64,000 nucleotides of DNA. It comes from Mesorhizobium sp. YIM 152430 (lineage in GTDB: Bacteria > Pseudomonadota > Alphaproteobacteria > Rhizobiales > Rhizobiaceae). Each line of letters begins with the position of its first letter. The first letter of the stretch is position 1. Location of the stretch: contig NZ_JARGES010000015.1 in NCBI RefSeq assembly GCF_029210365.1, positions 124,001 through 188,000 of the forward strand, in the 5' to 3' direction. The position numbers were made by a program, and so were the translations under genes. Shown piece after piece: positions 31,039 through 47,866 of the stretch. Under the pieces are notes generated by a model. The model made no database searches, was not told the DNA's origin, and worked only from the letters and a program-made list of their open reading frames with translations.

Positions 31039-31817
31039 TGCTCGCCGCCCGCAACCTCTTCGTCAGCCTCTCCGGCCGCGCCATCCTTCATGACGTTTCC
31101 ATGGCACTGGAACCCGGCGAAGTGGTCGGCCTTCTCGGCCCCAACGGCGCCGGCAAATCGACTTTGATGCGCGCTCTGTCCGGCCTGCTTCCCTTCTCCG
31201 GCACCGTCGAACTCGACGGCGACAACCTCGCCGCCATGAGCGACCGCGCCCGCGCGCGCCACATCGCATTCCTGCCGCAGGCCCGCGCCATCGCCTGGCC
31301 GCTATCGGTGGAGAACGTCGTCCGCCTCGGCCGCAGCCCTTGGCGCGGCCTCGGCGCGCTGTCGCAAAAGGACCTCGCCATCGTCACAGATGCCATGGAG
31401 GCCATGGATGTCGCGGCACTTGCGGATCGCCCCGTCACCGAACTCTCCGGCGGCGAACAGGCCCGCGTCCTCGCCGCCCGCGCGATGGCGCAGACGACGC
31501 CGGTCCTGCTTGCCGACGAACCCGTCTCCGGGCTCGACCCCGCGCATCAGATGACGATGATGGCCGCCTTGCGCCGCCTCGCCGGCCAACGCCGCGCAAT
31601 CCTCGTCTCCCTCCACGACCTGACCCTCGCTGCCCGCTGGTGCGACCGTCTCGTCGTGATGGCGGAAGGCCGCATCGTCGCCGAAGGCAGGCCCGCCGAC
31701 ATCATGACCGGGGAGCGCCTGCGCGACGTCTTCGGCATCACCGCCCACATCGCCCATGACGAATGCGGCCTGATCTTCGCGCCGACGGGTCTGGCTGCGC
31801 TGGAGCCGAAGGGCTAG
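31038..31817 (+). CDS. btuD: Cobalamin ABC transporter ATP-binding protein BtuD-like
   Basis: 259 residues. Walker A is GPNGAGKST, the signature [15 protein letters not shown], Walker [13 protein letters not shown], and the switch region VSLHDLTLA. It has the FecE/BtuD-type [20 protein letters not shown]-loop. It overlaps btuC by one nucleotide. Its stop codon overlaps that of the convergent glycerol kinase gene in the palindrome CTAG. Confidence 0.9.
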
Positions 31818-33301
31818 CTCAACGTCCGCCTAACCGCATCCCGCCACCCCGCCAGCTTCGTCTCCCTAAGTCCGTCCGCCATCGCCGGCTCGAACCGGTG
31901 ATCGAGCTTCCACGCCTGCGAAAACTCCGCCATCCCCGGCCAGACCCCGGCGCGCGATCCCGCCAGCCATGCCGCTCCCAGCGCCGTCGTTTCCAGGATC
32001 GTCGGCCGGTCGACCGGCGCGTCGAGGATGTCGGCGAGGCGCTGCATCGTCCAGTCGGAGGCGACCATGCCGCCATCGACCCTCAGCACCGTCTGCCCCG
32101 AGGCATCCGCCCAGTCCTTCCTCATCGCGTCGAGCAGGTCGCGCGTCTGGAACGCGACGGATTCGAGGGCGGCGCGGGCGAACTCTGCCGGGCCGGTGCT
32201 GCGCGTCAGGCCGAAAATCGCGCCGCGCGCATCCGCGTCCCAGTGCGGCGCGCCGAGCCCGACGAAGGCCGGCACGAGATACACCTGTTGGCTCTCGTCC
32301 GCCTCGGCCGCCAGTTGTCCGCTTTCCTCGGCCTTGCCGATCACCCTGATCCCGTCGCGCAGCCACTGCACCGCGGCGCCGGCCACGAAGATCGAGCCTT
32401 CCAGCGCATAGGTCGTGCGCCCGTCGAGCCGATAGGCGATGGTCGTCAACAGCCGGTTCTTCGAGCGCACCAGCGTCTCCCCGGTGTTGAGCACGGCGAA
32501 ACAGCCCGTCCCATAGGTGGATTTCATCATGCCCGGCTGGAAACACGCCTGGCCGATCGTCGCCGCCTGCTGGTCGCCGGCAACGCCCAGGATCGGGATC
32601 GCCGCGCCGAACAGCGACGCCTTCGTCACGCCGAAATCGGCCGCGCTGTCCATGACCTCCGGCAGCATCGAAAGCGGCACGTTCAGCAGCCCTGCCAGTT
32701 CGTCATCCCATGCATTCGTCTCGATATTGAAGAGCAGCGTGCGCGAGGCGTTGGTCGCGTCGGTGACATGCGCCGCCTCGCCCGTCAGTTTCCAGATCAG
32801 GAAGGCATCCATCGTGCCGGCCAGAAGTTCGCCCGCCTCGGCCCGCGCCCGCGCACCCTCCACATTGTCGAGCAGCCAGGCGAGCTTGGTGCCGGAAAAG
32901 TAAGGGTCGAGCAGCAACCCGGTCTTTTCGGCAAAGACCTCTTCGAGGCCCTTTTCCTTCATCTCATGGCAGATCGCGGCCGTGCGCCGGTCCTGCCAGA
33001 CGATTGCGTTGTGAATGGGCCTGCCCGTCGCCTTCTCCCAGACGACGACTGTCTCGCGCTGGTTGGTGATGCCGATCGCGGCGATGTCGGATGCGCCGAT
33101 GCCAGCCTTGTCGAGCGCCGTCTTCACCACCGCGACGACGCTCTCCCAGATCTCGTCGGCATCGTGCTCGACCCAGCCGGACTGCGGGAAATGCTGCGTG
33201 AATTCCTGCTGCCCGACGCCGGCGATCTTCATCTCGCCGTCGAAGACGATCGCCCGGCTCGATGTCGTGCCCTGGTCGATCGCGAGAACGAACCCGCCCA
33301 T
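31814..33301 (-). CDS. glpK: Glycerol kinase
   Basis: 495 residues, standard length. The FGGY-family phosphate motif [18 protein letters not shown] opens the protein. Further GlpK features are HYPQ-like [32 protein letters not shown] and [20 protein letters not shown]. It phosphorylates glycerol to sn-glycerol-3-phosphate. It is the third gene of a compact glpR-glpD-glpK unit, 24 nt after glpD. No glycerol transporter is next to it. It directly neighbours the candidate sulfoquinovose locus through glpR. Confidence 0.96.
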
Positions 33302-33325
33302 GAAATTCTCCCCGATTCTGGTCTG

Positions 33326-34831
33326 TCAGGCCGCCTCGGCAAGCCCGCCCATGAAGGTCTGAAGTCGCGCGACATCGCCTTCGGACACCACCAGACCGCG
33401 CTTGGTGCGTCGCCACAACACGTCCTCGGCGGTCATCGCCCACTCATGCGCCATCAGATAGCAGATTTCCGCCTCATAGAGGTCGGAGCCGAAGTGACGC
33501 CCCAGATCGTCGCGCGATGTCGCCGAACCGAGGATCGTGCGCACCCGCGTGCCGTAGAGCCGGGTCAGCCGCCGCGCGTGATCCTTGCCTAAAAACGCAT
33601 AATCGGCTTGCAGCTTGCGCACCGTCTCGTCGAACGTGCCGACCGCGAAGTCGCCGCCCGGCAGCGTCGTATTTTGCGTCCAGGGTCGGCCCTTGGTTCC
33701 GATCAGTCCCTCGATCTTCGCCAGCATGGATTCGGCCAGCCGCCGATAGGTGGTGATCTTGCCGCCGAAGATGTTGATCAGCGGCGCGCCGTCCGTATCG
33801 GCTTTCAACACATAGTCGCGCGTCGCCTCCTGCGCCTTCGACGCGCCGTCGTCATAAAGCGGGCGCACGCCCGAGAAGGTCCAGACGATGTCCTCGCGCC
33901 GCACCGGCTCGGCGAAATATTCGCTCGCCGAGGCGATCAGATAGTCGATCTCCGCCTCGCTGATCGCGACGTCCTTCGGGTCGCCGTCATAATCCTGGTC
34001 GGTCGTCCCGATCATGGTGAAGTCGTCGTGATAGGGAATGGCGAAGATGATCCGCCCGTCGGCATTCTGGAAGAAATAGGCGCGGGGATCGTCGAACTTC
34101 TTCCTCACGACGATATGGCTGCCCTGGACGAGCCGCACGTTGTGAACGTCCCCACGCCCCACCGTCTCGGCGAGCACATGGTCGACCCACGGCCCGCCAG
34201 CATTGACGAGAAGCCGCGCGCGCACCGCCTCGCGGCGGCCCGTCTTCTGGTCCTCGATCCCGACCGACCAGCTATCGCCCTCACGCCTTGCCGAAACCAC
34301 CTTGGTCCGCGTGCGGATGACCGCGCCCTTGTCGGCGGCGTCGCGCGCGTTGAGCACGACGAGCCGCGCGTCATCGACCCCGCAATCCGAATACTCGAAT
34401 GCCTTCGAGAAAAGCGGTTTCAAAGGCCGGCCTGCCGGATCGGTCGTCATGTCGAGGACGCGCGTTTTCGGCAACAGCTTGCGCCCGCCGATATGGTCGT
34501 AGAGGAAAAGACCGAGCCGCAGGAGCCAGGCCGGTCGCAAGCCCCTGTGGTGCGGCAGGACGAAACGCATCGGCCAGATGATGTGCGGTGCGTTCGCCCA
34601 GAGAATTTCGCGCTCTTCCAGCGCTTCGCGTACCAGCCGGAACTCGTAATGTTCGAGATAGCGCAGCCCGCCATGGATCAGCTTGGTCGACCAGGACGAG
34701 GTGCCGCTCGCCAGATCGTTCATCTCGGCCAGAAACACCGAATAGCCGCGACCGGCGGCATCCCGCGCGATCCCACATCCGTTGATGCCGCCACCGATGA
34801 TGAAGATGTCGTGGGTCGTCTCGTCAGGCAC
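33326..34831 (-). CDS. glpD: Aerobic glycerol-3-phosphate dehydrogenase
   Basis: 501 residues. The FAD-binding N-terminus reads HDIFIIGGGINGCGIARDAAG, followed by GTSSWSTKLIHGGLRYLEHYEFRLV, the GlpD substrate-site signature. Later motifs are GPWVDHVLAE, RAYFFQNADGRIIFAIPYHD, and the IGTTDQDY stretch. It oxidises glycerol-3-phosphate to dihydroxyacetone phosphate and passes electrons to quinone at the inner membrane. A palindromic site that could bind GlpR lies just upstream of its start. Confidence 0.96.
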   Translation of the reverse strand: MPDETTHDIFIIGGGINGCGIARDAAGRGYSVFLAEMNDLASGTSSWSTKLIHGGLRYLEHYEFRLVREALEEREILWANAPHIIWPMRFVLPHHRGLRPAWLLRLGLFLYDHIGGRKLLPKTRVLDMTTDPAGRPLKPLFSKAFEYSDCGVDDARLVVLNARDAADKGAVIRTRTKVVSARREGDSWSVGIEDQKTGRREAVRARLLVNAGGPWVDHVLAETVGRGDVHNVRLVQGSHIVVRKKFDDPRAYFFQNADGRIIFAIPYHDDFTMIGTTDQDYDGDPKDVAISEAEIDYLIASASEYFAEPVRREDIVWTFSGVRPLYDDGASKAQEATRDYVLKADTDGAPLINIFGGKITTYRRLAESMLAKIEGLIGTKGRPWTQNTTLPGGDFAVGTFDETVRKLQADYAFLGKDHARRLTRLYGTRVRTILGSATSRDDLGRHFGSDLYEAEICYLMAHEWAMTAEDVLWRRTKRGLVVSEGDVARLQTFMGGLAEAA

Positions 34832-34842
34832 GTCGATTATCC

Positions 34843-34864
34843 GATTTCGAAATCAAACGAAATC
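34843..34864. promoter_or_regulatory. Putative GlpR operator upstream of glpD
   Basis: A perfect inverted repeat, GATTTCG (34843-34849) and CGAAATC (34858-34864), sits 12 nt upstream of the glpD start in the glpR-glpD gap. TTTCG/CGAAA half-sites resemble operators of DeoR-family glycerol regulators. Confidence 0.5.
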
Positions 34865-34915
34865 TAAATGAAACATCGTCGAAATCCAAGGGGCGCGCCG
34901 CCGCCGGTCCCTGCG

Positions 34916-35680
34916 CTATTGGCTGGTTTCCACCAATTGCACGCCGGCTTCCTTGCAAACGCGCCTGATCTCGCCGTTCGGGCACCTGTCGGTGACGAAG
35001 CTCGAAACCTGCGACAGATGCGCGATGCGAACAGGCGCGGTGCGCTCGAACTTGGTCGAATCGGCGACGAGGATGACGTGCCGTGCATTGGCGATGATCG
35101 CCTGCGCGACTTTCACTTCGCGAAAGTCGAAATCGAGCAGCGCCCCGTCCTCGTCGATCGCGGAGGTTCCGATCACCGCATAGTCGGCCTTGAACTGGCG
35201 GAAGAAATCGACCGCCGCCTCGCCCACCACGCCGCCATCCGAGCCGCGCACCACGCCGCCCGCGATCACCACCTCGATCGAGGGCTGCACGCGCATCCGG
35301 TTGGCGACGTTGATGTTGTTGGTGATGACCATCAGCCCCTTGTGGTCGCCCAGCGCCTCGCTGACGGCTTCGGTCGTCGTGCCGATATTGATGAAGAGGG
35401 AGGCGTTGTCGGGGATGAGGGCCGCGGCCGCACGGCCGATCGCCTGCTTCTCGTCGGCCGCGATCCGGCGCCGCGCCTCGTATTCCATGTTCTCGATGCC
35501 CGACGGGATCACCGCCCCGCCATGGATGCGCGCGAGAAGACGCTTGTCGCAAAGCTCGTTCAGATCCTTGCGGATCGTCTGCGGCGAGACGTCGAAGCGA
35601 ACCGCGAGGTCATCGACGAGGACGCGCCCGCTGTCCTTGGCGAGTTGCACGATTTCGGCATGACGAGGAAGAAGAAACAT
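34916..35680 (-). CDS. glpR: DeoR-family glycerol-3-phosphate regulon repressor
   Basis: 254 residues with an N-terminal DeoR winged helix (RHAEIVQLAKDSGRVLVDDL, VSPQTIRKDLNELCDKRLLARIHGG) and the sugar-phosphate-sensor domain (LFINIGTTTEAVSEAL, VVIAGGVVRGSDGGVVG, DYAVIGTSAIDEDGALLDFD). It precedes glpD and glpK in the same direction. TTCG-rich palindromes upstream of this gene and of glpD suggest autoregulation. It differs from the GntR regulator of the neighbouring sugar locus. Confidence 0.92.
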   Translation of the reverse strand: MFLLPRHAEIVQLAKDSGRVLVDDLAVRFDVSPQTIRKDLNELCDKRLLARIHGGAVIPSGIENMEYEARRRIAADEKQAIGRAAAALIPDNASLFINIGTTTEAVSEALGDHKGLMVITNNINVANRMRVQPSIEVVIAGGVVRGSDGGVVGEAAVDFFRQFKADYAVIGTSAIDEDGALLDFDFREVKVAQAIIANARHVILVADSTKFERTAPVRIAHLSQVSSFVTDRCPNGEIRRVCKEAGVQLVETSQ

Positions 35681-35736: not shown

Positions 35737-36747
35737 CTATTTCGAGAACCGGTATTCGGTCGCCTGCCGGTAGACCTCGCCCGGCCGCAGCAGCGCCTGC
35801 GGAAAGTCGGGATTGTTCGGCGCATCGGGCCATATCTGGGGTTCTAGGCAAAGGCCGGAAAATGCGCCGTAGCTGCGCCCGTCCAGCCCGCCCCCTTCGA
35901 TGGCGAGTTTGTGGCCGGCATAGAACTGGAGGCCCGGCTCGCTCGTCCAGACCTCCATCGCCAAACCTGACTGCGCGCCCTCCAGCCGAGCCGCGCGCGT
36001 CAGCGGTCGTCTTGCATCGGCGAGACACCAATTATGGTCGTAGACGAAAGGTACGCTGTCCTGGTCCCACGCGATCCTGCGGATCTGTCGAAAATCGAAC
36101 GGTCCGCCCGCGACCGGTTCCGTGCCGCCTGTCGGAATCCACTCCTCGTCGACGGGCACATAGCGCTCGGCGTCGATCATCAGCCGATGGTCGAGCACGT
36201 CGCCCACACCGCCATCGTCGAGGTTGAAATAGGAGTGATGGGCCAGATTGCACAGCGTCGGGGAGTCGGTGCGGGCCGTCAGTCCCACCTTCAGCGCGCC
36301 ATCCTCGAGCCTGTAGACACATTCGATGTCGAGATTGCCCGGAAAGCCCATCTCGCCATTGCGGTCGGCAAGCGTCAGCCGGACGAAATCGGAACCCGCC
36401 TCCGCGATCGACCAGACGCGCTTGCCGGTTCCCTTGACGCCGCCGTGAAGCAAATGCTTGCCGAGGAAATTGGTGTCCACCTGCACGGTCCGGCCATCCA
36501 GTTCGAACCGGCCGTGCCTGATCCGGTTGGCATAGCGTCCCGCAATCGCGCCGAAGAAGGGCGAGCGGACGGGATAATCCTCGAAGCGCTCAAAGCCGAG
36601 CACCAGTGGCGGTTCATGGCCGGCAAGGCGCAGATCCTGCACCAAGGCGCCCCAGGTCAGAACCTTGGCCGTCAGTCCGCCGCCAGCGATGGTGATCCGC
36701 TTGACTGTCTCGCCATCCGGCGTGCGGGCGAATTCCTCGATCCTCAT
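35737..36747 (-). CDS. Aldose 1-epimerase (candidate sulfoquinovose mutarotase)
   Basis: 336 residues of the GalM family: FFGAIAGRYANRIRHGRFEL, LLHGGVKGTGKRVW, and the catalytic-type NLAHHSYFNLDD (His) and GLCLEPQIWPDAPNNPDFP (Glu). It interconverts alpha and beta anomers of an aldose. Its start overlaps the stop of the upstream dehydrogenase in ATGA. It is the last gene of a four-gene unit with SlcC-like and ComC-like dehydrogenases. In E. coli the sulfoquinovose cluster also contains a mutarotase (YihR), so this would be the equivalent. That assignment is from context. Confidence 0.88.
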   Translation of the reverse strand: MRIEEFARTPDGETVKRITIAGGGLTAKVLTWGALVQDLRLAGHEPPLVLGFERFEDYPVRSPFFGAIAGRYANRIRHGRFELDGRTVQVDTNFLGKHLLHGGVKGTGKRVWSIAEAGSDFVRLTLADRNGEMGFPGNLDIECVYRLEDGALKVGLTARTDSPTLCNLAHHSYFNLDDGGVGDVLDHRLMIDAERYVPVDEEWIPTGGTEPVAGGPFDFRQIRRIAWDQDSVPFVYDHNWCLADARRPLTRAARLEGAQSGLAMEVWTSEPGLQFYAGHKLAIEGGGLDGRSYGAFSGLCLEPQIWPDAPNNPDFPQALLRPGEVYRQATEYRFSK

Positions 36748-37748
36748 GCGGCACTGATCGCGCCGATCTCGTCGATCAGCGCCTGCTCGACTGCAATGCC
36801 GTCCGCCGTCAGTCTTTCGCGCAGCGCGATGCGGCGATGTCCGGGTACGCGCGCGCCCGCGCTGCCTGCGATTTGATCCGCCATTTCGGCGAACCGCGCC
36901 AGCGCGTGAGCGCCGAAGACGCCCGGATCGATGGCGATGATCGCCTGTCCCGTCCCCGGCGGATCGCCCGCCGCGTCGAAGAACGAGGTCTGCTCATAGC
37001 CGTAATTCGCACCGGTCAGCCCGGCGCACAAGAGTTCGACCATCAGCGCCAGTGCCGTGCCCTTGGCGTCGCCGAGCGGGATCATCGTGCCGGAAAGCGC
37101 CGCCTTGGCGTCGGTGGTCGGCCTGCCGTCGGCATCGAGCGCCCAGCCTTCGGGAATGGCCTCGCCCTTCTGGTTCGCGGCCATGATCTTGCCGCGCGCC
37201 ACCTTGGAGAGCGACACGTCGACGACGATCGGATCGCCGCCTTCGCTCGGGCAGGCAAAGGCGATCGGATCGGTGCCGAAGAGCGGGCGACGCCCGCCCC
37301 ATGGCGCCATCGCCGCCGGTGCATTGGCGAACATCAGCGCCACCAGCCCACGCGCGGCCAGCGCTTCCACGGCAAGCCCGGCGACGCCGGCATGGTGCGA
37401 GCGGCGGATGCCGGCAATCGCGATCCCCTGCCTTGGTGCCATCTCGGCGAGTTGCGCATTGGCGAGTTCCAGCGCCGGATAGGCAAAGCCGAACCCGGCA
37501 TCGATCTTCACCGCTCCCGGCCGCACGCGCTCGGCGCGCACCGCCGCATGGCCCTTGACCTTGCCGGCCCGCGCCTGCGCCGCATAGGCCGGCACCCGCC
37601 TCAAACCGTGCCCGCCCTGCCCGACCAGTTCTGCGCCGACCAGCGCCCGCGCGACCGCATCGGCGTTCTCGACCGACGTGTCCGACGCCGTCAGTGCGGC
37701 GGCGATCAACGCGTGTGCCTCGCCGACCGTCAGCACCTGCTCGTTCAT
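36744..37748 (-). CDS. Ldh-family (malate/L-lactate/sulfolactate) dehydrogenase, ComC-like
   Basis: 334 residues of the NAD(P)-dependent Ldh_2 family: ELVGQGGHGLRRVPAYAAQA, RRSHHAGVAGLAVEALAARG (catalytic His), GTDPIAFACPSEG, VDVSLSKVARGKIM and GTALALMVELLCAGLTGA. Family members oxidise or reduce 2-hydroxyacids, including (R)-sulfolactate dehydrogenase ComC. It overlaps its upstream and downstream neighbours by 4 nt each. Pairing with a D-2-hydroxyacid dehydrogenase of the SlcC type repeats the known arrangement in which the two enzymes together invert sulfolactate through sulfopyruvate. Confidence 0.85.
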   Translation of the reverse strand: MNEQVLTVGEAHALIAAALTASDTSVENADAVARALVGAELVGQGGHGLRRVPAYAAQARAGKVKGHAAVRAERVRPGAVKIDAGFGFAYPALELANAQLAEMAPRQGIAIAGIRRSHHAGVAGLAVEALAARGLVALMFANAPAAMAPWGGRRPLFGTDPIAFACPSEGGDPIVVDVSLSKVARGKIMAANQKGEAIPEGWALDADGRPTTDAKAALSGTMIPLGDAKGTALALMVELLCAGLTGANYGYEQTSFFDAAGDPPGTGQAIIAIDPGVFGAHALARFAEMADQIAGSAGARVPGHRRIALRERLTADGIAVEQALIDEIGAISAA

Positions 37749-38677
37749 TCCTGCGTCTCCAGATGCGCGATCACGAGATCCGCGATCATGTCGGAGACGC
37801 GCACATTCGATTCCTCCGTCACGCCCGCGATATGCGGCGTCAGGACGAGATTGGAAAGCCCCTTGAACTTCGCGCCGTCCTCTGCCGTCAGCGGCTCGGC
37901 TTCGAAGACGTCGAGCGCAGCCCCTCCAAGCTTCCCGTCACGCAGCGCATCGGCCAGCGCCGCCTCGTCGACGACGCCGCCGCGCGCGGCATTGATCAGG
38001 ATCGCGTCGCGCTTCATCAGCCCGAGCCGCCGCGCGTCGATCATGTGCCGCGTCGCCTCGGTCAGCGGCACATGCAGCGAAACGACGTCGGCAAGCTCCA
38101 TCAGCCCGTCGAGCGAAACGTTGCGGGCCACCTGCCAGGCCGGATGGCCTGCATCGAGATGCGGGTCGTAGGCGACGAGGCCCATGCCGTAGTCATGCGC
38201 CCGCCACGCCACTTCCTGCGCGATCGCGCCGAAGCCGATCAGGCCGAGCGTCTTGCCGGCGAGTTCGCGCCCCATCATCTTCTGGCGCGGCCATTTCCCC
38301 GCCGCCACCGCTTCGCTCGATGCGTAGGCCCGGCGCAGAAGCAGCATCGCATTGGCAATGACATATTCGGCGACGGCGAGATTGTTGGCCCCGGTCGCCG
38401 GATGCACGACGATCCCGCGCGCCGAACACGCCTCCATGTCGATATTGTCGAGCCCGACGCCCAGCCGGCCGACGACCTTGAGGTTGCCGGCTCCGTCCAG
38501 AAGCGCACCGCGAACCTGCGTCCGGTTGCGCACGACCAGCGCCCGCGCCGGCCGGACAGCCTCGGCCAGACGCTCCGGCACGTCGACCAGTTTCGGATCG
38601 TAGAGCGTGTCGAACCGCGCCGTCAGCCGCGCGACCGCCGCTTCGTCCATGAATTCGCAGATGACGATGTCGGTCAT
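37745..38677 (-). CDS. D-2-hydroxyacid dehydrogenase, (S)-sulfolactate dehydrogenase (SlcC)-like
   Basis: 310 residues. The NAD motif is LGLIGFGAIAQEVA. The catalytic Arg-Glu-His set is complete: R232 in NAARGGVVDE, E261 in DVFEAEPL and H282 in LTPHIAGVTEES. The N-terminal RNRTQVRGALLDGAGNLKVV and VGRLGVGLDNID resemble SlcC-type sequences as I recall them. The start at 38677 is 2 nt after the stop of the small upstream gene. The more extended start at 38722 would overlap that gene. It would interconvert (S)-sulfolactate and sulfopyruvate. Other 2-hydroxyacids remain possible. Confidence 0.85.
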   Translation of the reverse strand: MTDIVICEFMDEAAVARLTARFDTLYDPKLVDVPERLAEAVRPARALVVRNRTQVRGALLDGAGNLKVVGRLGVGLDNIDMEACSARGIVVHPATGANNLAVAEYVIANAMLLLRRAYASSEAVAAGKWPRQKMMGRELAGKTLGLIGFGAIAQEVAWRAHDYGMGLVAYDPHLDAGHPAWQVARNVSLDGLMELADVVSLHVPLTEATRHMIDARRLGLMKRDAILINAARGGVVDEAALADALRDGKLGGAALDVFEAEPLTAEDGAKFKGLSNLVLTPHIAGVTEESNVRVSDMIADLVIAHLETQE

Positions 38678-38679
38678 GT

Positions 38680-38880
38680 TCACGCGCTGCGATAGAGGTT
38701 GGCCATCGGAAACTCGCGGCACCAGAGCGCCTCTGCCGCCATGTTGCGCCCGTTGACCTTCAGCCCGAAACTGGAATGATCATGCATGACGACGGATTGC
38801 ATCTTCGTGCCCGCCGTCAGCCCTTCGATGGCGACGGCATTGTGCTGGGGCCCGTCAACGGGCAAACGGGGGATCGCCAT
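38680..38880 (-). CDS. Unknown 66-residue protein leading the SlcC/ComC-like operon
   Basis: Not recognised. The ATG at 38880 has a near-ideal ribosome-binding site (GAGGAGGT) and the stop is 2 nt before the dehydrogenase start, so it is clearly translated with it. The sequence has a His-rich central motif, VVMHDHSSFGLKVNG, and ends RNMAAEALWCREFPMANLYR. There is no signal peptide or membrane helix. It is too small for an enzyme by itself and could be a subunit, a metal- or ligand-binding partner, or a fragment of a larger family. It is the first gene after a GntR-type operator. Confidence 0.75.
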   Translation of the reverse strand: MAIPRLPVDGPQHNAVAIEGLTAGTKMQSVVMHDHSSFGLKVNGRNMAAEALWCREFPMANLYRSA

Positions 38881-38950: not shown

Positions 38951-39041
38951 CCACGACGCAATCCGTCGGACATGCACCCGGTTTCGTCAAGGGGTTCGTC
39001 GAGCCAGGCGGGGAATCGAAGGTTACTTGGCGGAGAAGCGG

Positions 39042-39824
39042 ATGACTGGTGCGCAGATGGACGAAACGGACGGCGATGTCCAGGAAGCGCGCTTTCGCGC
39101 CGAGCGGACAGGCAAGCTCGGCTATCAGCCGCTCTACAAGCGTGTGAAGGCGCTGCTCGTCGCCCGCATCGCTGATGGCCGCTGGCAGCCGGGCCAGTCG
39201 ATCCCCAACGAATTCCAGATCGCCGAGGAACTGAACGTCTCCCAGGGCACCGTGCGCAAGGCGCTGCACGAAATGACGCTCGACAATCTGCTCGTCCGCC
39301 GGCAGGGGCGCGGCACCTTCGTCACATCCTATGACGACGAACGCATCCTGTTCCAGTTTTTCAAGCTGACGGCCGATGAAGGCAAGCGCGAGTTTCCCGA
39401 CAGCACGGTCCTGTCACTGGAAAGCGGCGCGTCAAATGCGTCGGAGGCCGACGCGCTGGCGATCGCTGCGGATGAGCCCGTCTGGCGTCTCGTCCGCCGC
39501 CGCACGCTCGGCGAAAAGCCGCTGATCATCGAGCGCATCGTCCTCCCCGCCGAAATCTTCCCCGAACTCGACCGCTTCGAGACCATCCCCAACAATGTCT
39601 ACGGCCTTTATTCCAGCCGATACGGCGTCACCGTAGCGCGCGCGGTGGAGAAGCTGAAGGCCGTCGGCGCCGACGCGCACGACGCCCGTCATCTCAATTG
39701 CCCGTTCGGGATGCCGCTGCTCGAAGTCGACCGCCGCGCCGTCGGCCTCGACGACCGCATCGTCGAATGGCGCATCTCCCGCTGCCTCACCGAAGCGCAT
39801 CATTATCTGTCGGATTTGAAGTAG
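39042..39824 (+). CDS. GntR-family (HutC/UTRA) regulator of the sugar locus
   Basis: 260 residues. The N-terminal GntR winged helix is seen in LGYQPLYKRVKALLVARIAD, ADGRWQPGQSIPNE and the recognition region ELNVSQGTVRKALHEM. The C-terminal UTRA domain includes ADEPVWRLVRRRTLGEKPLI and the closing GMPLLEVDRRAVGLDDRIVE. The ATG at 39042 follows GGAGAAG; a TTG start 15 nt earlier is less likely. It lies between the two leftward operons and is transcribed against them. Palindromes of the same design in both upstream regions suggest it controls all three units, with a sugar phosphate or sulfonated sugar as inducer. Confidence 0.9.
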   Translation: MTGAQMDETDGDVQEARFRAERTGKLGYQPLYKRVKALLVARIADGRWQPGQSIPNEFQIAEELNVSQGTVRKALHEMTLDNLLVRRQGRGTFVTSYDDERILFQFFKLTADEGKREFPDSTVLSLESGASNASEADALAIAADEPVWRLVRRRTLGEKPLIIERIVLPAEIFPELDRFETIPNNVYGLYSSRYGVTVARAVEKLKAVGADAHDARHLNCPFGMPLLEVDRRAVGLDDRIVEWRISRCLTEAHHYLSDLK

Positions 39825-39825
39825 A

Positions 39826-40938
39826 TCACGCGACCTGACGGTCGCGCCACCCTTCCGCAAACTCCACCGCCTGCCCCGTGCGCGCGGAAAGTTCCGCCGC
39901 CGCGCCCATCTCGACCGAGCGCAGCCCATCCTCCAGCGACACTTCCGGCTCGCCGCCGTCCAGCACCATCTGCCGGAACAGGCGATGCTGATAGAAGGTG
40001 GAGCCGTGATGGTCGCCGGCGGCGAGGATTTCCGGGTCGACCTCGATCACGCGCCGCTGTGGCCCCTTCGGCTCACGCGGCGAGATGACGATCTCGGCCG
40101 CGCGCTCGCCCGTGCCCGGCCAGAACCGCGCCGGCCCCGGCACGAAGGCTTCGATCTTGCCCGCAGAACCCATTGCCGAGACATGCTCCTGGAACCAGCT
40201 TCCTTCCGAAAACATGCACAATTCCAGCATTGCGCGCATCCCGTTGGCGAAATCGGCGATCACATAGGCATTGTCGAGAATGTCCGGCGCGCGGCCGTCA
40301 TAGGTCTCGTCCTTGTGGTTCACGTCCTGCCCCCCCGACGCATAGATCCGCACCGGTTCCGACTGCGTGACGAGCCGCATCAGGTCGAAGAAGTGGCAGC
40401 ATTTTTCCACCAGCGTCCCGCCGGTCTCGGCCGCAAAACGGTTCCAGTGCCCGACCTTGTGCAGGAACGGAAACCGGTGCTCGCGGATCGTCAGCATCCT
40501 GGTCTCGCCGATCGTCCCGGCGCGGATTTCCTCGATCATCCGCGCGATCGGCGGCATGTAGCGATATTCCATCGCCACCCAGACCGGCGCCTTTCGCCCC
40601 GCAGCCGCGGCGAGGATGTGCCGGCTCGTCTCGGCCGTCGAACAGAGCGGCTTTTCGACCAGGATGGGCAGGTCCGTCGGCAGAACGTCGAGCAGGATGT
40701 CGTGATGCGTATGGTTGGGGCTGGCGATGACCAGCACGTCGGCGAGCCCCGCATCCATCAGCGCGCGATGGTCGCTGAACTGCCGCGCCCCGCCGGCAAG
40801 CGCCGCTGCGCGCTCGCGCATTCCCTCGTCCGGGTCGCTGACGGCGACGATTTCCGCCTCGGGCAGAAGCATGATGTTGCGGATATGCTCCTGCCCCATC
40901 ATGCCCGAACCGATGATCGCATAGCGCAGTTTCGACAT
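39826..40938 (-). CDS. Gfo/Idh/MocA-family protein (candidate NAD-dependent sulfoquinovosidase)
   Basis: 370 residues. The Rossmann motif is YAIIGSGMMGQEHI, the family signature lysine K96 is in VEKPL, and the second-domain EKCCHFFDLMR holds K179, H182 and D185 at the usual catalytic positions. Such proteins are sugar dehydrogenases or NAD-dependent glycosidases. I recall that NAD-dependent sulfoquinovosidases of this fold have been reported. No other glycosidase is present in the locus, which makes that role attractive here. It ends the kinase-aldolase-isomerase unit and converges on the GntR gene, with a 1-nt gap. Confidence 0.85.
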   Translation of the reverse strand: MSKLRYAIIGSGMMGQEHIRNIMLLPEAEIVAVSDPDEGMRERAAALAGGARQFSDHRALMDAGLADVLVIASPNHTHHDILLDVLPTDLPILVEKPLCSTAETSRHILAAAAGRKAPVWVAMEYRYMPPIARMIEEIRAGTIGETRMLTIREHRFPFLHKVGHWNRFAAETGGTLVEKCCHFFDLMRLVTQSEPVRIYASGGQDVNHKDETYDGRAPDILDNAYVIADFANGMRAMLELCMFSEGSWFQEHVSAMGSAGKIEAFVPGPARFWPGTGERAAEIVISPREPKGPQRRVIEVDPEILAAGDHHGSTFYQHRLFRQMVLDGGEPEVSLEDGLRSVEMGAAAELSARTGQAVEFAEGWRDRQVA

Positions 40939-40949
40939 GGGATTTCCTT

Positions 40950-42347
40950 TTAGAATTCGATAACCGGCAGGCCCATCTCGGCGCCGAGCGCCCGCAGTGC
41001 CGGCCGGTGGTCGCCATAAACGAGACTGAGGTGATGCTCGAGCCCGGCCCCCACGATCGTCTCTGCTACCGTTTCGACCGGCGCATCAAAGGCGAGCACG
41101 CCCGCCGTGCCGGAAAATGCCAGCGGCCGGCGCAGCATCTCGCCACCCGCGATCACCATCGTCGGATGCCCGCGCGCCTGGCTGATCCGCGCGAAGGTGA
41201 CGCGGCCGGGCTTCAGCGGAAACTCGAACAGAAGCGGCATCTTGCGGTTGGAATGGATCGCCGTCTTCGCCGTCACGCTCTCGTCGCGCATCGAAACGGG
41301 CGCCTGCCCGCAATGCCAGACGACGCCGGTGCCGTCCTGCGCATCGAGGTCGACGAGATCGACGAGGAATGCGGCGTCGCCGGTCATCTCCTGCAAAAGG
41401 AGATTGGTCAGCGCGCCGTGAACGTCGGCCTCGCAGGCGCACGGCACGCGCCGCTCGCCCATCATTCCGACCGGCCCGCAGACCGCGCCGCCATAGTGCG
41501 TGAACATTTCCGGCCAACAGCGCACAGCGAAGGCCGAATAGCCGCCTGTCGCGCGCACGTCCTCCAGCGCCGCGCGCAGGCGCAGCGACCGGTCGAGCTG
41601 CTCCTGGTCGACACTGTCGAGATCGGCGAGCGTCGCGCTGGCCTCTGCCCGTGCCTTCCTTACATCACTTTCGCCCGCATCCCGCGCCGCCGCGAACAGC
41701 GCGTCAAGCGCGATCGGCTCGACCGAGACGCCCGCAAGGCTTTCGAGCCTTTCGGGGTCGTAATCGCAGGTGAAGAACCCGTCCGGCCGCTCGCCGATCC
41801 GCCCGATCCGGCTGCCGGCGATCCGCGCCAGAACCGCCCGCGCGCCGGCCCGCTCGGTCTCTCCCGCATCCGCTCTCGCCAGCGGCAGCGCCTTCGCCTG
41901 CCGCTTCCCGGCCAGAAGCTCGGCGGCCAGCGCGCCGACATCCGCCATGGCCGGATCGGCATGGACCCAGCCGAACGCGACATCGTTGAGCCCCAGCGCA
42001 TGGGCGGCGAGATTGAGCCCGCAAAAGGCGTTGAGCCGCAGCCGTCCGCCGGTTCGCGGCTCGGGAAACGACCAGATCGCAAGCGGCGCATCCGCCGCCT
42101 CCGCGATCTTCACCGTCATCGTCGCATCGGTGAACGTCACCTGCACGATCAGCAGCAGGTCGAGCCCCCGGCCCTTCATCGCCGCCAGCGCTCCCTCGGT
42201 CGCCGGCGCGTCGAACAGCAACGCCTCGCCGCCGACCATCTCATGCCCCGCAACCGAAAGTCCTTCCCTCAGCTTGCCGTAAAGCTCCTCGGCGTAAGGC
42301 ACGTCGAAAGTCGCGCGTGCCAGCGGCAACAGCCCGATCCGCGCCAT
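40950..42347 (-). CDS. L-fucose/L-arabinose isomerase-like protein (candidate SQ isomerase)
   Basis: 465 residues. The N-terminal half, with MARIGLLPLARATFDVPYAE, a GGEALLFDAP stretch and a LLIVQVTFTDATM segment, has the look of the L-fucose isomerase-type fold (COG2407). The C-terminal half (WPEMFTHYGGAVCGPVGMMG, CACEADVHGALTNLLLQEM, DLVDLDAQDGTGVVWHCGQA) contains likely metal ligands E, D and H. It should interconvert an aldose and ketose. In E. coli the equivalent step on sulfoquinovose uses the unrelated YihS, which is absent here. The start at 42347 overlaps the aldolase stop by 1 nt. Confidence 0.75.
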   Translation of the reverse strand: MARIGLLPLARATFDVPYAEELYGKLREGLSVAGHEMVGGEALLFDAPATEGALAAMKGRGLDLLLIVQVTFTDATMTVKIAEAADAPLAIWSFPEPRTGGRLRLNAFCGLNLAAHALGLNDVAFGWVHADPAMADVGALAAELLAGKRQAKALPLARADAGETERAGARAVLARIAGSRIGRIGERPDGFFTCDYDPERLESLAGVSVEPIALDALFAAARDAGESDVRKARAEASATLADLDSVDQEQLDRSLRLRAALEDVRATGGYSAFAVRCWPEMFTHYGGAVCGPVGMMGERRVPCACEADVHGALTNLLLQEMTGDAAFLVDLVDLDAQDGTGVVWHCGQAPVSMRDESVTAKTAIHSNRKMPLLFEFPLKPGRVTFARISQARGHPTMVIAGGEMLRRPLAFSGTAGVLAFDAPVETVAETIVGAGLEHHLSLVYGDHRPALRALGAEMGLPVIEF

Positions 42348-43387
42348 CACGCGCCTCCCATGCCGGCATACGAATGCCGGAACGAAGCGTCCGCGTGGGC
42401 GATCCCGGCCTTGCCGCCGTAAAGCGGCGTCTCGAACCACGGCGTCGCGCTTTGGTCCGTCAGCGCATTGATCCGCTTCACATAGGGCAGGCTCGTCTGC
42501 CGCAATCCCGAGCGAATGCCGTCCCAGTCGGGAAACGCCTTGAACGGCTCCGACCAGATCGCACGGCCGGCCAGATAGCCCGACGCCCCCGCCGCATAGG
42601 CGTGCTTCAGCACCGCCTCGAACTCCGCCATTCCCGCACCCGCCGAAAGCATCACCCAGGGCCGGCCGGCGATGCGGCCCATCTCGTCGAACAGCTTCTG
42701 CGTCGCCGCATCCGTCCCCTCGCCGATGCCCTTGGCCGGCACCGGACTTTCCAGCTTGAAGATGTCGATGCCGAAGGCTGGGTCGGCGAAGCGGCGCACG
42801 CTTTCGAGCACGTTGTCGGCCTGCTTCGCGGCCATCTCGACATAGTCCTTCGTCTGCTCGGCCTCGCCCGGCAGCGGATAGACGAGAAGCTCGAAAAGAT
42901 ACGGAATGTCATAGGCTTGGCAGGCTTCCCCGATTCGCTTCGCGAAATCCTCCTGCGCCCGGCAATTGGCCGGGTCCGCGTCCGGCCGGTACCAGGCGAG
43001 CACCTTCACCGCATCGCCGCCGGCGCGCTTGATCTTCTCCACCGACCAGTCGTCGATCTCGTCCGACAGCCGTCCCGTTGCCGTCTCGCGGAAGATCGAA
43101 TCCTCCAGCGTCACCACCATGCCCTTGGCGGGCGAGGCGACGGAAAGCCCGCGCGGCAGCGCGAAATGCGGGTCCATCAGGACGGCCGAAGTCTCGGCCT
43201 GCAATTCCTCCACCAGCATCAGCTTGAAGCCGGCCACGTCCTCATAGGGCGCTTCAGCCGTGCCGCGTATCGTCATGATCGGATTCTTGATCGGCGGCCG
43301 CTGGTCCACCGCCAGCATCTTGAACCGGCCCTTTGCGTCGGCAAGCCGGCGCAGGCCCCAGAGCTTGCCGGCCGAAAGTGTGGTCAT
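42347..43387 (-). CDS. Class I aldolase, LacD/YihT family (candidate sulfofructose-phosphate aldolase)
   Basis: 346 residues. LacD/YihT features are FKMLAVDQRPPIKN near the start, DAVKVLAWYRPDAD, and IDIFKLESPVP, whose K211 is the predicted Schiff-base lysine. Late in the protein are PWVMLSAG and AGASGYLAGRAIW, the latter carrying R275 at the position of the sulfonate- or phosphate-binding arginine. The family cleaves tagatose-1,6-bisphosphate or 6-deoxy-6-sulfofructose-1-phosphate to dihydroxyacetone phosphate and a C3 aldehyde. The start at 43387 overlaps the kinase stop by 4 nt. Confidence 0.85.
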   Translation of the reverse strand: MTTLSAGKLWGLRRLADAKGRFKMLAVDQRPPIKNPIMTIRGTAEAPYEDVAGFKLMLVEELQAETSAVLMDPHFALPRGLSVASPAKGMVVTLEDSIFRETATGRLSDEIDDWSVEKIKRAGGDAVKVLAWYRPDADPANCRAQEDFAKRIGEACQAYDIPYLFELLVYPLPGEAEQTKDYVEMAAKQADNVLESVRRFADPAFGIDIFKLESPVPAKGIGEGTDAATQKLFDEMGRIAGRPWVMLSAGAGMAEFEAVLKHAYAAGASGYLAGRAIWSEPFKAFPDWDGIRSGLRQTSLPYVKRINALTDQSATPWFETPLYGGKAGIAHADASFRHSYAGMGGA

Positions 43388-44289
43388 GCCTGCGATCCTT
43401 CGTGTTCGTCCAGAAATCGATCGAGTTCGGGGCGCGTCGGAATGCCCGCCCGCCCGCCGAATTTCGTGCATTTGATTGCCGCAGCCGCCGAGGCGAAGCG
43501 GATCGCCGCGCGCGTTTCCATGCCTTCGGCGAGCGCCACGGTCAGCGCGCCATGCCAGACGTCACCCGCCCCGAGCGTGTCGACGACCTCGACCGTGAAG
43601 GCCGGCACATGCGCGATATCGGCGCCGTCGAAAAACAACGTCCCCTCCGCCCCGATCGTCACCGAGAGATGCGCGGAACAGCGGTCGCGCAAGCGCAGAA
43701 GCCCTTCCCGCGGATCGTCGGTCCCACTCATTTCACGCAGCGCCTGCGCCGACAGCGCGACATGGCTTGCGGCATCGAGCAGGCTCGCATCGAAGGGCGG
43801 CCGGTCGACGTCGAGCACGGCGGGCAGGCCCGCCGCGCGCGCAAGACCGAAAAGGTGCCGCGCGCCCTCCTCCCAGCGAATGTCGCCCATCACCGCGCCG
43901 GTTCCAGCCGGCAGTTCACTCGGCAGCCAGTCGGTCGAAGTCGGGATCGACCAGTCGCCATAATTGACGATCATCCGCTCACCCGCCTTGTCGACGAAGA
44001 CCGAGGACAGTGGCGAGCGATGCCCGGCGAAGCGCCGCAACCCGGTGCAGTCGACGCCCTCGGCCGCAAGCCCTTCGATGATCTGCGTGGCCACGACATC
44101 ATCACCCAAACGCCCGATCATGTGCGCCTTGTGCCCGAGCCGGGCCGCCGTCGCCGCCGCGTTCGCGGCCAGCCCGCCGCCCACCACCCGCATGTCGCGG
44201 GCACGGTATTTCTCGGCGCGGTCCGGCATCCGGACGACCGAAAACACATAGTCCACGACCGCGATGCCGATGAAGAAGATGTCGCTCAT
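43384..44289 (-). CDS. PfkB-family kinase, sulfofructose kinase (YihV)-like
   Basis: 301 residues. It has the ribokinase-fold motifs VGGGLAANAAATAARLG and VDTLGAGDVWHGAL, with D243 as the catalytic base. Compared from memory with E. coli sulfofructose kinase YihV, it aligns without gaps from residue 1 to 139. It keeps K27 (AEKYRAR), N109 (GERMIVNY) and R138 (GDIRWEEGA), the residues I recall as contacting the sulfonate. The C-terminal KCTKFGGRAGIP also matches. It should phosphorylate sulfofructose at C1. It is the first gene of the kinase-aldolase-isomerase-Gfo unit and is divergent from the ABC importer, with a perfect palindrome between them. Confidence 0.88.
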   Translation of the reverse strand: MSDIFFIGIAVVDYVFSVVRMPDRAEKYRARDMRVVGGGLAANAAATAARLGHKAHMIGRLGDDVVATQIIEGLAAEGVDCTGLRRFAGHRSPLSSVFVDKAGERMIVNYGDWSIPTSTDWLPSELPAGTGAVMGDIRWEEGARHLFGLARAAGLPAVLDVDRPPFDASLLDAASHVALSAQALREMSGTDDPREGLLRLRDRCSAHLSVTIGAEGTLFFDGADIAHVPAFTVEVVDTLGAGDVWHGALTVALAEGMETRAAIRFASAAAAIKCTKFGGRAGIPTRPELDRFLDEHEGSQA

Positions 44290-44363
44290 GGACCTGTGTC
44301 GCACTGTTCGCGCGGATGACCTGCGCTATCTGAAAGCGCCCTTGATGAGCGGAACGGTAACAG

Positions 44364-44470: not shown

Positions 44471-45556
44471 GTGGCAGGCGTCGAAATCCGCCGGGTCGTC
44501 AAGCAATATGGCCGCGTCGAGGTGCTCCACGGCGTCGACCTTTCGGTGCGCGACGGCGAATTCACCGTCCTCGTCGGCCCCTCCGGCTGCGGCAAGTCCA
44601 CGCTTTTACGCATGATCGCGGGACTGGAGGGCATCACCGGCGGCGAGATCGCCATCGACGGCACCGTCGTCAACGACATGCCGCCGCGCGAGCGCGACAT
44701 CGCCATGGTCTTCCAGGACTACGCGCTTTATCCGCACAAGAGCGTCTACGACAATATGGGCTTCGGCCTCAGGATGCGTGGCGCCGCAAAATCCGAGATC
44801 GAGACGCTTGTCCACGAGGCGGCCGACATCCTCCAGATCAGGCACCTGCTCCAGCGCCGGCCCGGCCAGCTCTCCGGCGGCCAGCGCCAGCGCGTCGCCA
44901 TGGGCCGCGCCATCGTGCGCCGGCCGAAAGTCTTTCTGTTCGACGAACCGCTCTCCAACCTCGACGCGCAGTTGCGTGCCGAAATGCGCGTTGAGATCAA
45001 GAAACTGCACCAGCGCTTCGGCACCACCATCGTCTATGTCACCCACGACCAGATCGAGGCGATGACGCTTGCCGACCGGATCGCGATCATGAAGGATGGC
45101 TATCTCCAGCAATATGGCAGCCCGGACGAGGTCTACAACCGCCCGGCCAACCGCTTCGTCGCCTCCTTCATCGGCGCCCCGCCCATGAACATGACGCCCG
45201 CCAGCGTCTCGGCCGATGCGCGGATGATCCGGCTGCCGTCCGGCATGGACGTTACCCCGCGCGGTGCGAACCTTTCCGCCTGCGCCGGCCGCGACATCGT
45301 CATCGGCCTGCGCCCCGAACATGTTTCGCTTGGGGATGATCCCGCGCGCACGCCCGTTGCCGGCAAGGTCGAGCTGGTCGAGCCGCTGGGTTCCGAAACG
45401 CAGGCGACCGTGCGCGTGGGCGATGCCCGCTTCACCGGACGCTTCTCGCCGGAGGCCGGGCTGAAGCACGGTCAGGACGTGACGCTCGGCCTCGCGCTCG
45501 ACCGCGCCCATTTCTTCGACGCCGAAACCGGCGAGGCCATCCGCCTCGCCGCATGA
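44471..45556 (+). CDS. Sugar ABC transporter ATP-binding protein (UgpC/MalK-type), GTG start
   Basis: 361 residues: Walker [10 protein letters not shown], signature [16 protein letters not shown], Walker [13 protein letters not shown], switch His in [10 protein letters not shown], and a C-terminal OB-type regulatory domain beginning near [13 protein letters not shown] and containing [13 protein letters not shown] at 44471 is the start, with GGGAGG 6 nt before it. It energises the importer formed with the following binding protein and two permeases, all in one rightward unit. Confidence 0.92.
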
Positions 45557-45606
45557 AACATGCCTTCCCGCCCGCATGTCGGGCCTGCAACATCAGGGAG
45601 AGAGAG

Positions 45607-46866
45607 ATGACGAGACTGATTACCGGAACCGCGCTCGCCGCGATCATGACCTTGTCGGCCGGTTCGGCCTTCGCGCAGACCGAACTGCGCATCTTCACCG
45701 GCGGCCAGCAGCGGCCCGACGTGATGCGCCAGATCCTCGACGCCTATCAGGAGCAGAATCCCGACGTGACCGTCGAGATCGAGGTCGGCGGCGCGACGTC
45801 CGAGCAACAGCAGCAATATCTCAACACCGTCCTCGCCTCGCAGGATTCGACGCTCGACGTGGTGCTGATCGACGTCATCCGCCCGGCGCAATGGGCCGCC
45901 GCCGGCTGGGCCGAACCGCTCGACGACTATCTCGGCGACGAGCGCGATGCGATCATGGAGCGCTATCTACCCGCCTATCGCGAGGCCAACATCGTCGACG
46001 GGCAGGTCATGGCGCTGCCCTATTTCGCGGATTCGCAATTCCTCTATTACCGCACCGACCTTCTCGAAAAGCACGGCATCGAGCCGCCGAAAACCTGGGA
46101 CGAGTTGAAGGAAGCCGCGCTCAAGATCAAGGAAGCCGAAGGCAATCCCAACCTCGCCGGGTTCCTGACTGCCGGCGCGCCGATCGAGGGCACGGTCTGC
46201 ACCTACCTCGTTCCCTATTGGGGCGCGGGCGGCGAACTCGGCGGCGAAGGCGGCGCGATCACCCTGTCGGCCGAACAGGCCGCACGGCCCTTCGAGCTTT
46301 GGGGCGACTTCAAGGAAGCCGGCGTCCTGCCGCCGAACATCGCCGAAATCCCGACCGACCGCATCCGCCAGGACTTCCAGGCCGGGAACGCCATCTTCGC
46401 GATGAACTGGGGCTATGTCTGGAACCGCGTCCAGAACGACGAGGACAGCCAGGTCAAGGGCAATGTCGGCGTCGTCACCCTGCCCGGCTTCACCGCCGAC
46501 ACGCCGGCGACCTGCATCGGCGGCTGGCAGCTTGCCGTCTCCGCCTTCTCGGAGAACAAGGAAGCCGCCGTCGATCTGGTCAAATATCTCTCCAGCCCGG
46601 AAGTCTCCAAGCAGCAGGCGATCCTCGCCTCGCACATGCCGGTCTTCCCCGAGGTCTACACCGACGCCGAGGTGCTGGAGGCCAATCCGTGGTTCGAGGA
46701 TGCGCTGCCAGTCGTCGAAACCGCCCGCTCGCGCCCCGTCAGCCCGGCCTATCCGCGGGTCTCGGAAGTCGTCCGCACCAACATGAACGCCTTCCTCGCC
46801 GGAACCCAGGACGGCGCGACGTCCCTGCAAGCCATCGAGCAGGGGCTTTCCGAGGTCATGCAGTAA
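45607..46866 (+). CDS. Sugar ABC transporter substrate-binding protein (SBP_bac_1; candidate SQ/SQ-glycerol binder)
   Basis: 419 residues with a signal peptide (MTRLITGTALAAIMTLSAGS then AFAQ). The mature protein is a family 1 sugar-binding protein: TELRIFTGGQQRPDVMRQIL, LDVVLIDVIRPAQWAAAGW, ALPYFADSQFLYYRTDLLEK and a typical VGVVTLPGF stretch. The ATG at 45607 has AGGGAGAGAG just upstream; an in-frame start at 45553 would overlap the ATPase stop and displace the signal peptide. Sulfoquinovosyl-glycerol binding proteins such as SmoF belong to this broad family. The specific ligand is inferred from the locus. Confidence 0.88.
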   Translation: MTRLITGTALAAIMTLSAGSAFAQTELRIFTGGQQRPDVMRQILDAYQEQNPDVTVEIEVGGATSEQQQQYLNTVLASQDSTLDVVLIDVIRPAQWAAAGWAEPLDDYLGDERDAIMERYLPAYREANIVDGQVMALPYFADSQFLYYRTDLLEKHGIEPPKTWDELKEAALKIKEAEGNPNLAGFLTAGAPIEGTVCTYLVPYWGAGGELGGEGGAITLSAEQAARPFELWGDFKEAGVLPPNIAEIPTDRIRQDFQAGNAIFAMNWGYVWNRVQNDEDSQVKGNVGVVTLPGFTADTPATCIGGWQLAVSAFSENKEAAVDLVKYLSSPEVSKQQAILASHMPVFPEVYTDAEVLEANPWFEDALPVVETARSRPVSPAYPRVSEVVRTNMNAFLAGTQDGATSLQAIEQGLSEVMQ

Positions 46867-46929
46867 GTCTCCAGCGCGGCCGGAGCCATCCGGCCGCCTT
46901 TTCCATCTGAAAGGCAGAGGACCGAGCCG

Positions 46930-47865: not shown

Positions 47866-47866
47866 G

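Follow-up and report, generated by a model that had tools for sequence, protein, structure and literature searches.

The locus described here raises the question of whether a single bacterial cell can take sulfoquinovose (SQ) all the way to sulfite. Sulfoquinovose, an abundant sulfosugar of plants, is formed in amounts of billions of tons per year, and accounts of sulfoglycolysis commonly have it leave a sulfonate for a second organism. In a stretch of 64,000 nucleotides (nt) from Mesorhizobium sp. YIM 152430 (contig NZ_JARGES010000015.1, positions 124,001 to 188,000; the window hereafter), a pair of dehydrogenase genes resembling slcC and comC lies among sugar genes. The first-pass annotation had read this pair as enzymes inverting sulfolactate (SL) on a sulfosugar pathway that goes beyond SL within one cell. 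The analysis reported below makes it likely that slcC and comC supply the two halves of an SL racemase in a one-cell route of SQ mineralisation; activities, stereochemistry and flux we infer from the genes.

The comC-like gene (36744..37748, minus strand) encodes a protein of 334 amino acids (aa) of the Ldh_2 family, proposed to be an (R)-sulfolactate dehydrogenase converting sulfopyruvate to (R)-SL. The slcC-like gene (37745..38677, minus strand) encodes a D-2-hydroxyacid dehydrogenase of 310 aa, proposed to be an (S)-sulfolactate dehydrogenase converting (S)-SL to sulfopyruvate. The two genes overlap by 4 nt (ATGA), and comC is overlapped in like manner by a galM gene which starts at 36747. 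Coordinates, Pfam families and the ATGA junction all agree with the pair as first annotated, and its placement in an operon with a sugar epimerase also held. The automatic open reading frame of slcC starts at a GTG located 15 codons upstream of the ATG at 38677; the ATG start gives 310 aa, equal in length to the Paracoccus aestuarii protein.

The comC-like protein matched the Pfam Ldh_2 model (PF02615) with 314 bits (E 2e-93), and its best NCBIfam model was L-sulfolactate dehydrogenase, with 195 bits, under the cut-off of 500. A Paracoccus ComC linked to suyAB, the sulfolyase genes, obtained a similar score on this model (193.5 bits), so that the sub-cut-off score does not set the window ComC apart. 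Identity to five aligned homologues was 57-75%; four of these adjoin suyAB (L099, L021, L022, L024) and the one from P. ferrooxidans does not.

The slcC-like protein matched PF02826 (2-Hacid_dh_C, E 9e-57) and PF00389, and its best NCBIfam and PDB matches were phosphoglycerate dehydrogenases. The SlcC of Chromohalobacter salexigens has been placed in or beside the SERA clade (PMC6303947); the SERA-type arginine is kept in the window SlcC and in its plasmid relatives. An alignment of the window protein with four plasmid SlcC proteins showed that the catalytic Arg232, Glu261 and His282 of SlcC are invariant in all five, as is the motif R-N-R-T where the phosphoglycerate dehydrogenase 1wwk has R-S-K-P. 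The window SlcC was 61-64% identical to plasmid SlcC and 61-67% identical to suyAB-linked proteins. In the SlcC tree it fell within a group (support 96/94) of 15 rows, of which 11 come from SQ clusters.

A protein search of annotated plasmids identified adjacent slcC-comC pairs, mostly located beside suyAB, as the closest plasmid relatives of the window SlcC and ComC (59-67%). In P. aestuarii, P. seriniphilus and Methylobacterium radiotolerans the pair adjoins two genes annotated as 'UxaA family hydrolase', i.e. SuyA and SuyB; the P. ferrooxidans stretch carries the pair with neither SuyA nor SuyB beside it. The order SuyAB-SlcC-ComC was found in Sinorhizobium mexicanum, which has been named as having such homologues (PMC12421959). 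Of the 80 loci kept from a scan of public genomes for SuyB, 24 carry both SlcC and ComC, and eight have at least two of the sugar genes.

Co-occurrence was analyzed in 298 sampled genomes of this alphaproteobacterial family, using SlcC, ComC, SuyB and the isomerase of the window's sugar genes as markers (p values ignore relatedness). SlcC was present in 63 genomes and SuyB in 62, both being present in 54 (Fisher p 6e-41). The isomerase was found in 42 genomes, 34 of which have SuyB (p 3e-20); isomerase and suyB were at most 25 kb apart on one contig in 20 genomes, and all four markers occurred together in 29. It is very improbable that the substrates of the pair are non-sulfonated 2-hydroxyacids, its presence in the cluster being accidental or serving some unrelated sugar acid, given this co-occurrence of SlcC with SuyB (54/63), the clustering with SuyAB in several lineages, and the R-N-R-T of the five SlcC proteins as opposed to the R-S-K-P of 1wwk; the family-level annotation alone would fit malate, lactate or phosphoglycerate enzymes, and ComC relatives without SuyB do exist.

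Other gene combinations were seen among the relatives. Three SQ-type clusters (L067, L070 and L073, in genomes G004, G121 and G021) have SlcC with no adjacent ComC; G121 is also devoid of SuyB, and another fate of sulfopyruvate may exist. A P. seriniphilus plasmid (L024:2517-24957) carries genes read here as HpsN/O/P-like and SuyAB-SlcC-ComC, with nearby genes for an aldolase/citrate lyase, GabD, a short-chain dehydrogenase/reductase (SDR) and a sugar ATP-binding cassette (ABC) transporter. Here the same sulfolactate module may accompany a different sulfosugar set.

In three genomes of the same genus (G148, G212 and G266), kinase, aldolase, isomerase and SqgA genes are followed by a divergent GntR gene and then by SuyA-SuyB-SlcC-ComC-GalM, with suyA-suyB immediately preceding slcC-comC-galM. 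The corresponding slot of the window is occupied by a deletion scar of 201 nt (38680..38880, minus strand), an open remnant of 66 codons in which the 5' part of suyA is fused to the 3' part of suyB. SuyAB shares one operon with slcC-comC in the three related genomes and is represented in the window by a remnant. The earlier statement that the window has neither SuyAB nor a sulfolactaldehyde (SLA) dehydrogenase stands for intact genes near the pair; the window does contain the suyAB remnant, and intact candidates for both are encoded on other contigs.

When compared with the same-genus locus L056, the scar corresponded at one end to roughly the first 40 suyA codons and at the other to the final 75 nt of suyB, forming a single open frame that ends just ahead of the slcC start. 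Over 62 compared codons, about 22 of its differences from intact copies alter the amino acid and 7-11 are silent, and over the same codons the intact copies differ from one another mostly silently. This excess of amino-acid changes indicates that the remnant is no longer evolving as a functional protein. We suggest that the open frame left by the deletion may keep translational coupling into slcC.

Elsewhere in the genome, the search for suyAB identified an intact candidate on contig C12, with a SuyA of 96 aa and a SuyB of 393 aa (C12:252314-253492). This SuyB is 81% identical to that of P. aestuarii, 78-93% to those of seven relatives and 99-100% to those of siblings. Compared with other copies of the genus it shows 0-3 amino-acid-changing and 55-82 silent codon differences, and C12 suyAB is by this measure under strong purifying selection. 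Judged from these sequences, suyAB of the window has been deleted while an intact copy persists elsewhere in the genome.

The neighbours of C12 suyAB are an SDR gene, a tripartite ATP-independent periplasmic (TRAP)-type transporter (DctM and an NMT1-like binding protein) and BipA. A cut-and-paste move of suyAB from the window to C12 was considered and rejected, the C12 copy resembling the scar no more than sibling copies do. The metagenome-assembled genome G266 has one suyAB in the cluster and a second intact copy elsewhere (L091 / L170, G266:C9:90978-92156). The flanks of this second copy and of C12 suyAB show little match beyond suyAB itself, and extra copies of suyAB may have originated repeatedly.

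The loss of the operon suyAB could also mark a switch to SL excretion, C12 suyAB and slcC/comC being kept for imported C3 sulfonates. Such a two-tier use is unlikely, in that C12 suyAB is under strong purifying selection with its product in the same cytoplasm as the pathway, both slcC and comC remain whole and keep their coupling to galM, and G266 retains both suyAB copies; the deletion of suyAB from the window operon, the TRAP-type transporter near C12 suyAB, and the fact that neither GabD (see below) nor suyAB is linked to the sugar genes would be in agreement with it.

The genome search for a SlaB/GabD-type SLA dehydrogenase yielded an aldehyde dehydrogenase on contig C19 (115578-116993), which is 84% identical to the GabD found in the comC-galM slot of relatives (L064); the second-best aldehyde dehydrogenase of the genome reached 46%. 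GabD is located between comC and galM in relatives L093, L096, L099, L103 and L107, and most relatives checked have a single close GabD orthologue, namely the cluster copy. The C19 protein carries PWNFPSSMLSRKI and KYRNSGQTCVC, corresponding to the Arg pair and the Cys-x-Cys of RlGabD, residues which are common to succinate-semialdehyde dehydrogenases too, and it also has the WNF motif as in RlGabD. The sulfonate-binding Arg pair and the Cys motif, which holds the catalytic Cys, have been proposed for SLA binding in the SLA dehydrogenase RlGabD, for which the WNF motif has been described as well (PMC10599462). These features identify the C19 GabD as a candidate SLA dehydrogenase.

Genomes G252, G196 and G030 (L210, L211 and L212) contain the set transporter-ComC-GabD-GalM with similar neighbours (Mem_trans transporter, ketoacyl synthase), and these sets link GabD to ComC. 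The three have neither SuyB nor SlcC; two have a kinase 45-47% like that of the window. HpsN was also considered as the SLA oxidiser and rejected: the second histidinol-dehydrogenase paralogue of the genome is 43% identical to HpsN, and HpsN in related suy loci reaches 69-80%.

The sugar handled by the cluster is, judging from the genes around the pair, very probably SQ. The sqgA gene (39826..40938, minus strand) encodes a Gfo/Idh/MocA protein whose closest solved structures are 8qc3/8qc2 (E 2e-128), that is, SqgA, an NAD+-dependent sulfoquinovosidase of glycoside hydrolase family 188 (GH188) (PMC10755693). The residue list of that paper was mapped onto the alignment to 8qc3, with a 13-residue numbering offset deduced from matching residues. 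The sulfonate contacts of SqgA (Arg166, Leu170 and Lys172) and its sugar/catalytic contacts (Lys107, Tyr136, Glu189, His193 and His321) are each matched by the identical residue in the window protein.

Kinase, aldolase, isomerase and sqgA form a closely packed run on the minus strand. The YihV-like PfkB kinase (43384..44304), proposed to be a sulfofructose kinase, has the sulfofructose kinase of E. coli, 7ag6, as its best solved structure (E 1e-60). The class I DeoC/LacD-type aldolase (42347..43387; PF01791, E 7e-25) is the proposed sulfofructose-1-phosphate aldolase; since the gene overlaps the stop of the kinase gene, its start was deduced to lie at 43387. The SqvD/SftI-like aldose-ketose isomerase (40950..42350) is proposed to convert SQ to sulfofructose. 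Its AlphaFold model (pLDDT 80) matched L-arabinose/L-fucose isomerases (VIA Z 25-30, about 300 residues), and no SQ isomerase of the YihS type (PF07221) was found in the cluster, its place being taken by this protein of arabinose/fucose isomerase fold. An isomerase of the fucose/arabinose type, 39% identical to that of the window, is encoded on a 34-kb plasmid of Zymomonas mobilis (NC_013785.1:2123-3448). By these matches the sugar genes are a hybrid set of the sulfo-Embden-Meyerhof-Parnas (sulfo-EMP) type; hybrid sulfoglycolytic gene sets are known (PMC9594981, PMC12890257).

The galM gene (35737..36747, minus strand; PF01263, E 7e-73) encodes an aldose 1-epimerase, proposed to be a sulfosugar mutarotase, and has the same position in same-genus genomes. 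A GntR/UTRA regulator gene (39027..39824, plus strand; PF00392/PF07702), divergent from the slcC-comC operon, may encode the sulfolactate regulator; a homologue adjoins suyA in many suyAB loci, with mostly 44-57% identity and about 91% within the genus. On the plus strand, an ABC sugar importer (44471..48697) comprises an ATPase (44471-45556) and a binding protein (45553-46866), both recognised by Pfam, and two permeases (46930-47865 and 47867-48697), recognised by translation and conserved position. Genes for glpK, glpD and a DeoR-type regulator (31814..35680, minus strand; by translation) adjoin the cluster. They could consume the glycerol released from sulfoquinovosyl glycerol; glpK and glpD are probably general glycerol genes. 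The three are kept beside the cluster in same-genus genomes and are also found in G060, a same-genus genome devoid of the SQ cluster, where they adjoin a comC gene (L207:8728-9822) that is possibly a remnant of cluster loss.

In the route proposed, the ABC importer would bring in the substrate and SqgA would free SQ, which mutarotase, isomerase, kinase and class I aldolase would convert to dihydroxyacetone phosphate and (S)-SLA. The unlinked GabD would then oxidise (S)-SLA to (S)-SL, SlcC would convert this to sulfopyruvate, ComC would convert sulfopyruvate to (R)-SL, and SuyAB, now encoded on C12 only, would release pyruvate and sulfite, the C12 copy standing in for the deleted window copy. 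SLA inherits its (S) configuration from the sugar's C5, and SuyAB uses (R)-SL (PMC12421959), so that an inverting pair is needed. The reading of the first-pass annotation thus gains support from the operon suyAB of the three same-genus genomes, the intact suyAB of the genome itself, the GabD orthologue, the GH188 residues and the co-occurrence of SlcC and SuyB. Gene identity and order, the scar, the intact suyAB elsewhere and the conservation across relatives are established. With respect to the fate of sulfite, the genome encodes five TauE-family proteins.

Sulfopyruvate made by SlcC might instead be decarboxylated to sulfoacetaldehyde and cleaved by Xsc, ComC being a side reaction, as in a bifurcated route known from Roseovarius nubinhibens (through a reference in PMC8873060). 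The genome search for sulfopyruvate decarboxylase gave seven weak matches to thiamine pyrophosphate enzymes, none over the cut-off of 221.5 bits (the best reached 44.6; Xsc lay outside this search), and such a branch is most improbable.

Several observations weigh against the one-cell route through SlcC, ComC and SuyAB. The main one is that, among the 82 genomes with a ComC-like protein, SuyB is present in 55 and missing from 27; nine genomes also have SlcC without SuyB. G060 encodes a ComC 77% identical to that of the window and has no SlcC, SuyB or isomerase. It also keeps the GabD orthologue in the absence of SQ genes, and for this reason the GabD may be a general succinate-semialdehyde dehydrogenase. 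The sole NCBIfam match of the isomerase, sulfoquinovose isomerase SftI, scored 256 bits, below the cut-off of 700. The structure matches of the aldolase include YihT (7ag7/7ne2), yet 8tnf and the LacD/tagatose-bisphosphate aldolases are nearer. Being unlinked, on another contig, suyAB need not be co-regulated with the cluster. Finally, a SorA-type sulfite dehydrogenase was not recognised in the genome, in which Pfam detected a single PF00174 protein lacking a second domain (SoeABC was not searched).

Less firmly than the racemase reading, we hold it probable that a complete one-cell route from SQ glycosides to sulfite is widespread in the family (29/298), that SQ carbon and sulfur need not be cross-fed, and that the window strain lost its operon sulfolyase, leaving an open remnant before slcC. 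The coexistence of sulfosugar cleavage and SL mineralisation in one bacterium has been termed unusual (PMC12421959); from the window locus and its relatives one would expect it to be frequent within one bacterial family, which can be tested in named strains.

Each element of the route is already known, and the sulfofucose tandem pathway (PMC12421959) and the Actinobacterial GH188 clusters (PMC11465081) are close precedents. Among the papers that could be searched, no report of a sulfoquinovose version in Hyphomicrobiales was found. New here are the sulfoquinovose version and how widely it is spread, together with the unlinked GabD candidate and the deletion of suyAB with an intact copy elsewhere.

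The two-enzyme SlcC/ComC racemase of C. salexigens, as cited in PMC9594981 and PMC6303947, resembles the window pair in enzyme families and in the roles proposed before SuyAB; in those citations it is known from SL degradation, not from a sulfosugar cluster. The sulfo-EMP pathways of E. coli and Arthrobacter (PMC9594981, PMC8873060) share with the window a PfkB-type kinase and a PF01791 class I aldolase; that of E. coli has a mutarotase, and Arthrobacter uses a GabD-type SLA dehydrogenase and the GH188 enzyme SqgA. These organisms excrete dihydroxypropanesulfonate or SL, and the window isomerase has the arabinose/fucose fold, not that of PF07221.

The Actinobacterial GH188 clusters Y160 and Y158 (PMC11465081) resemble the window genome in their gene lists, which name GH188, fucose isomerase, sulfofructose kinase, D-3-phosphoglycerate dehydrogenase and (2R)-sulfolactate sulfo-lyase, and the Y160 clusters also list a sulfofructose phosphate aldolase. 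Their GH188 enzymes have Tyr in place of Leu170, whereas the window GH188 has Leu. In that work the clusters were put forward as possible new pathways, with the pathway itself left open and no SlcC/ComC racemase named.

The tandem sulfofucolytic-sulfolactate sulfolyase pathway of Paracoccus wurundjeri Merri (PMC12421959) combines, like the window genome, a sulfosugar pathway with SlcC, ComC and SuyAB in one bacterium, and its cluster likewise has sulfo-EMP-like kinase and aldolase genes. P. wurundjeri degrades sulfofucose by an Entner-Doudoroff route, whereas GH188 and the isomerase of the window indicate SQ and a hybrid sulfo-EMP route. The SLA dehydrogenase, unidentified in P. wurundjeri, gains a concrete candidate in the C19 GabD. 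Unlike the P. wurundjeri cluster, the window operon has lost suyAB, and a copy persists elsewhere in the genome.

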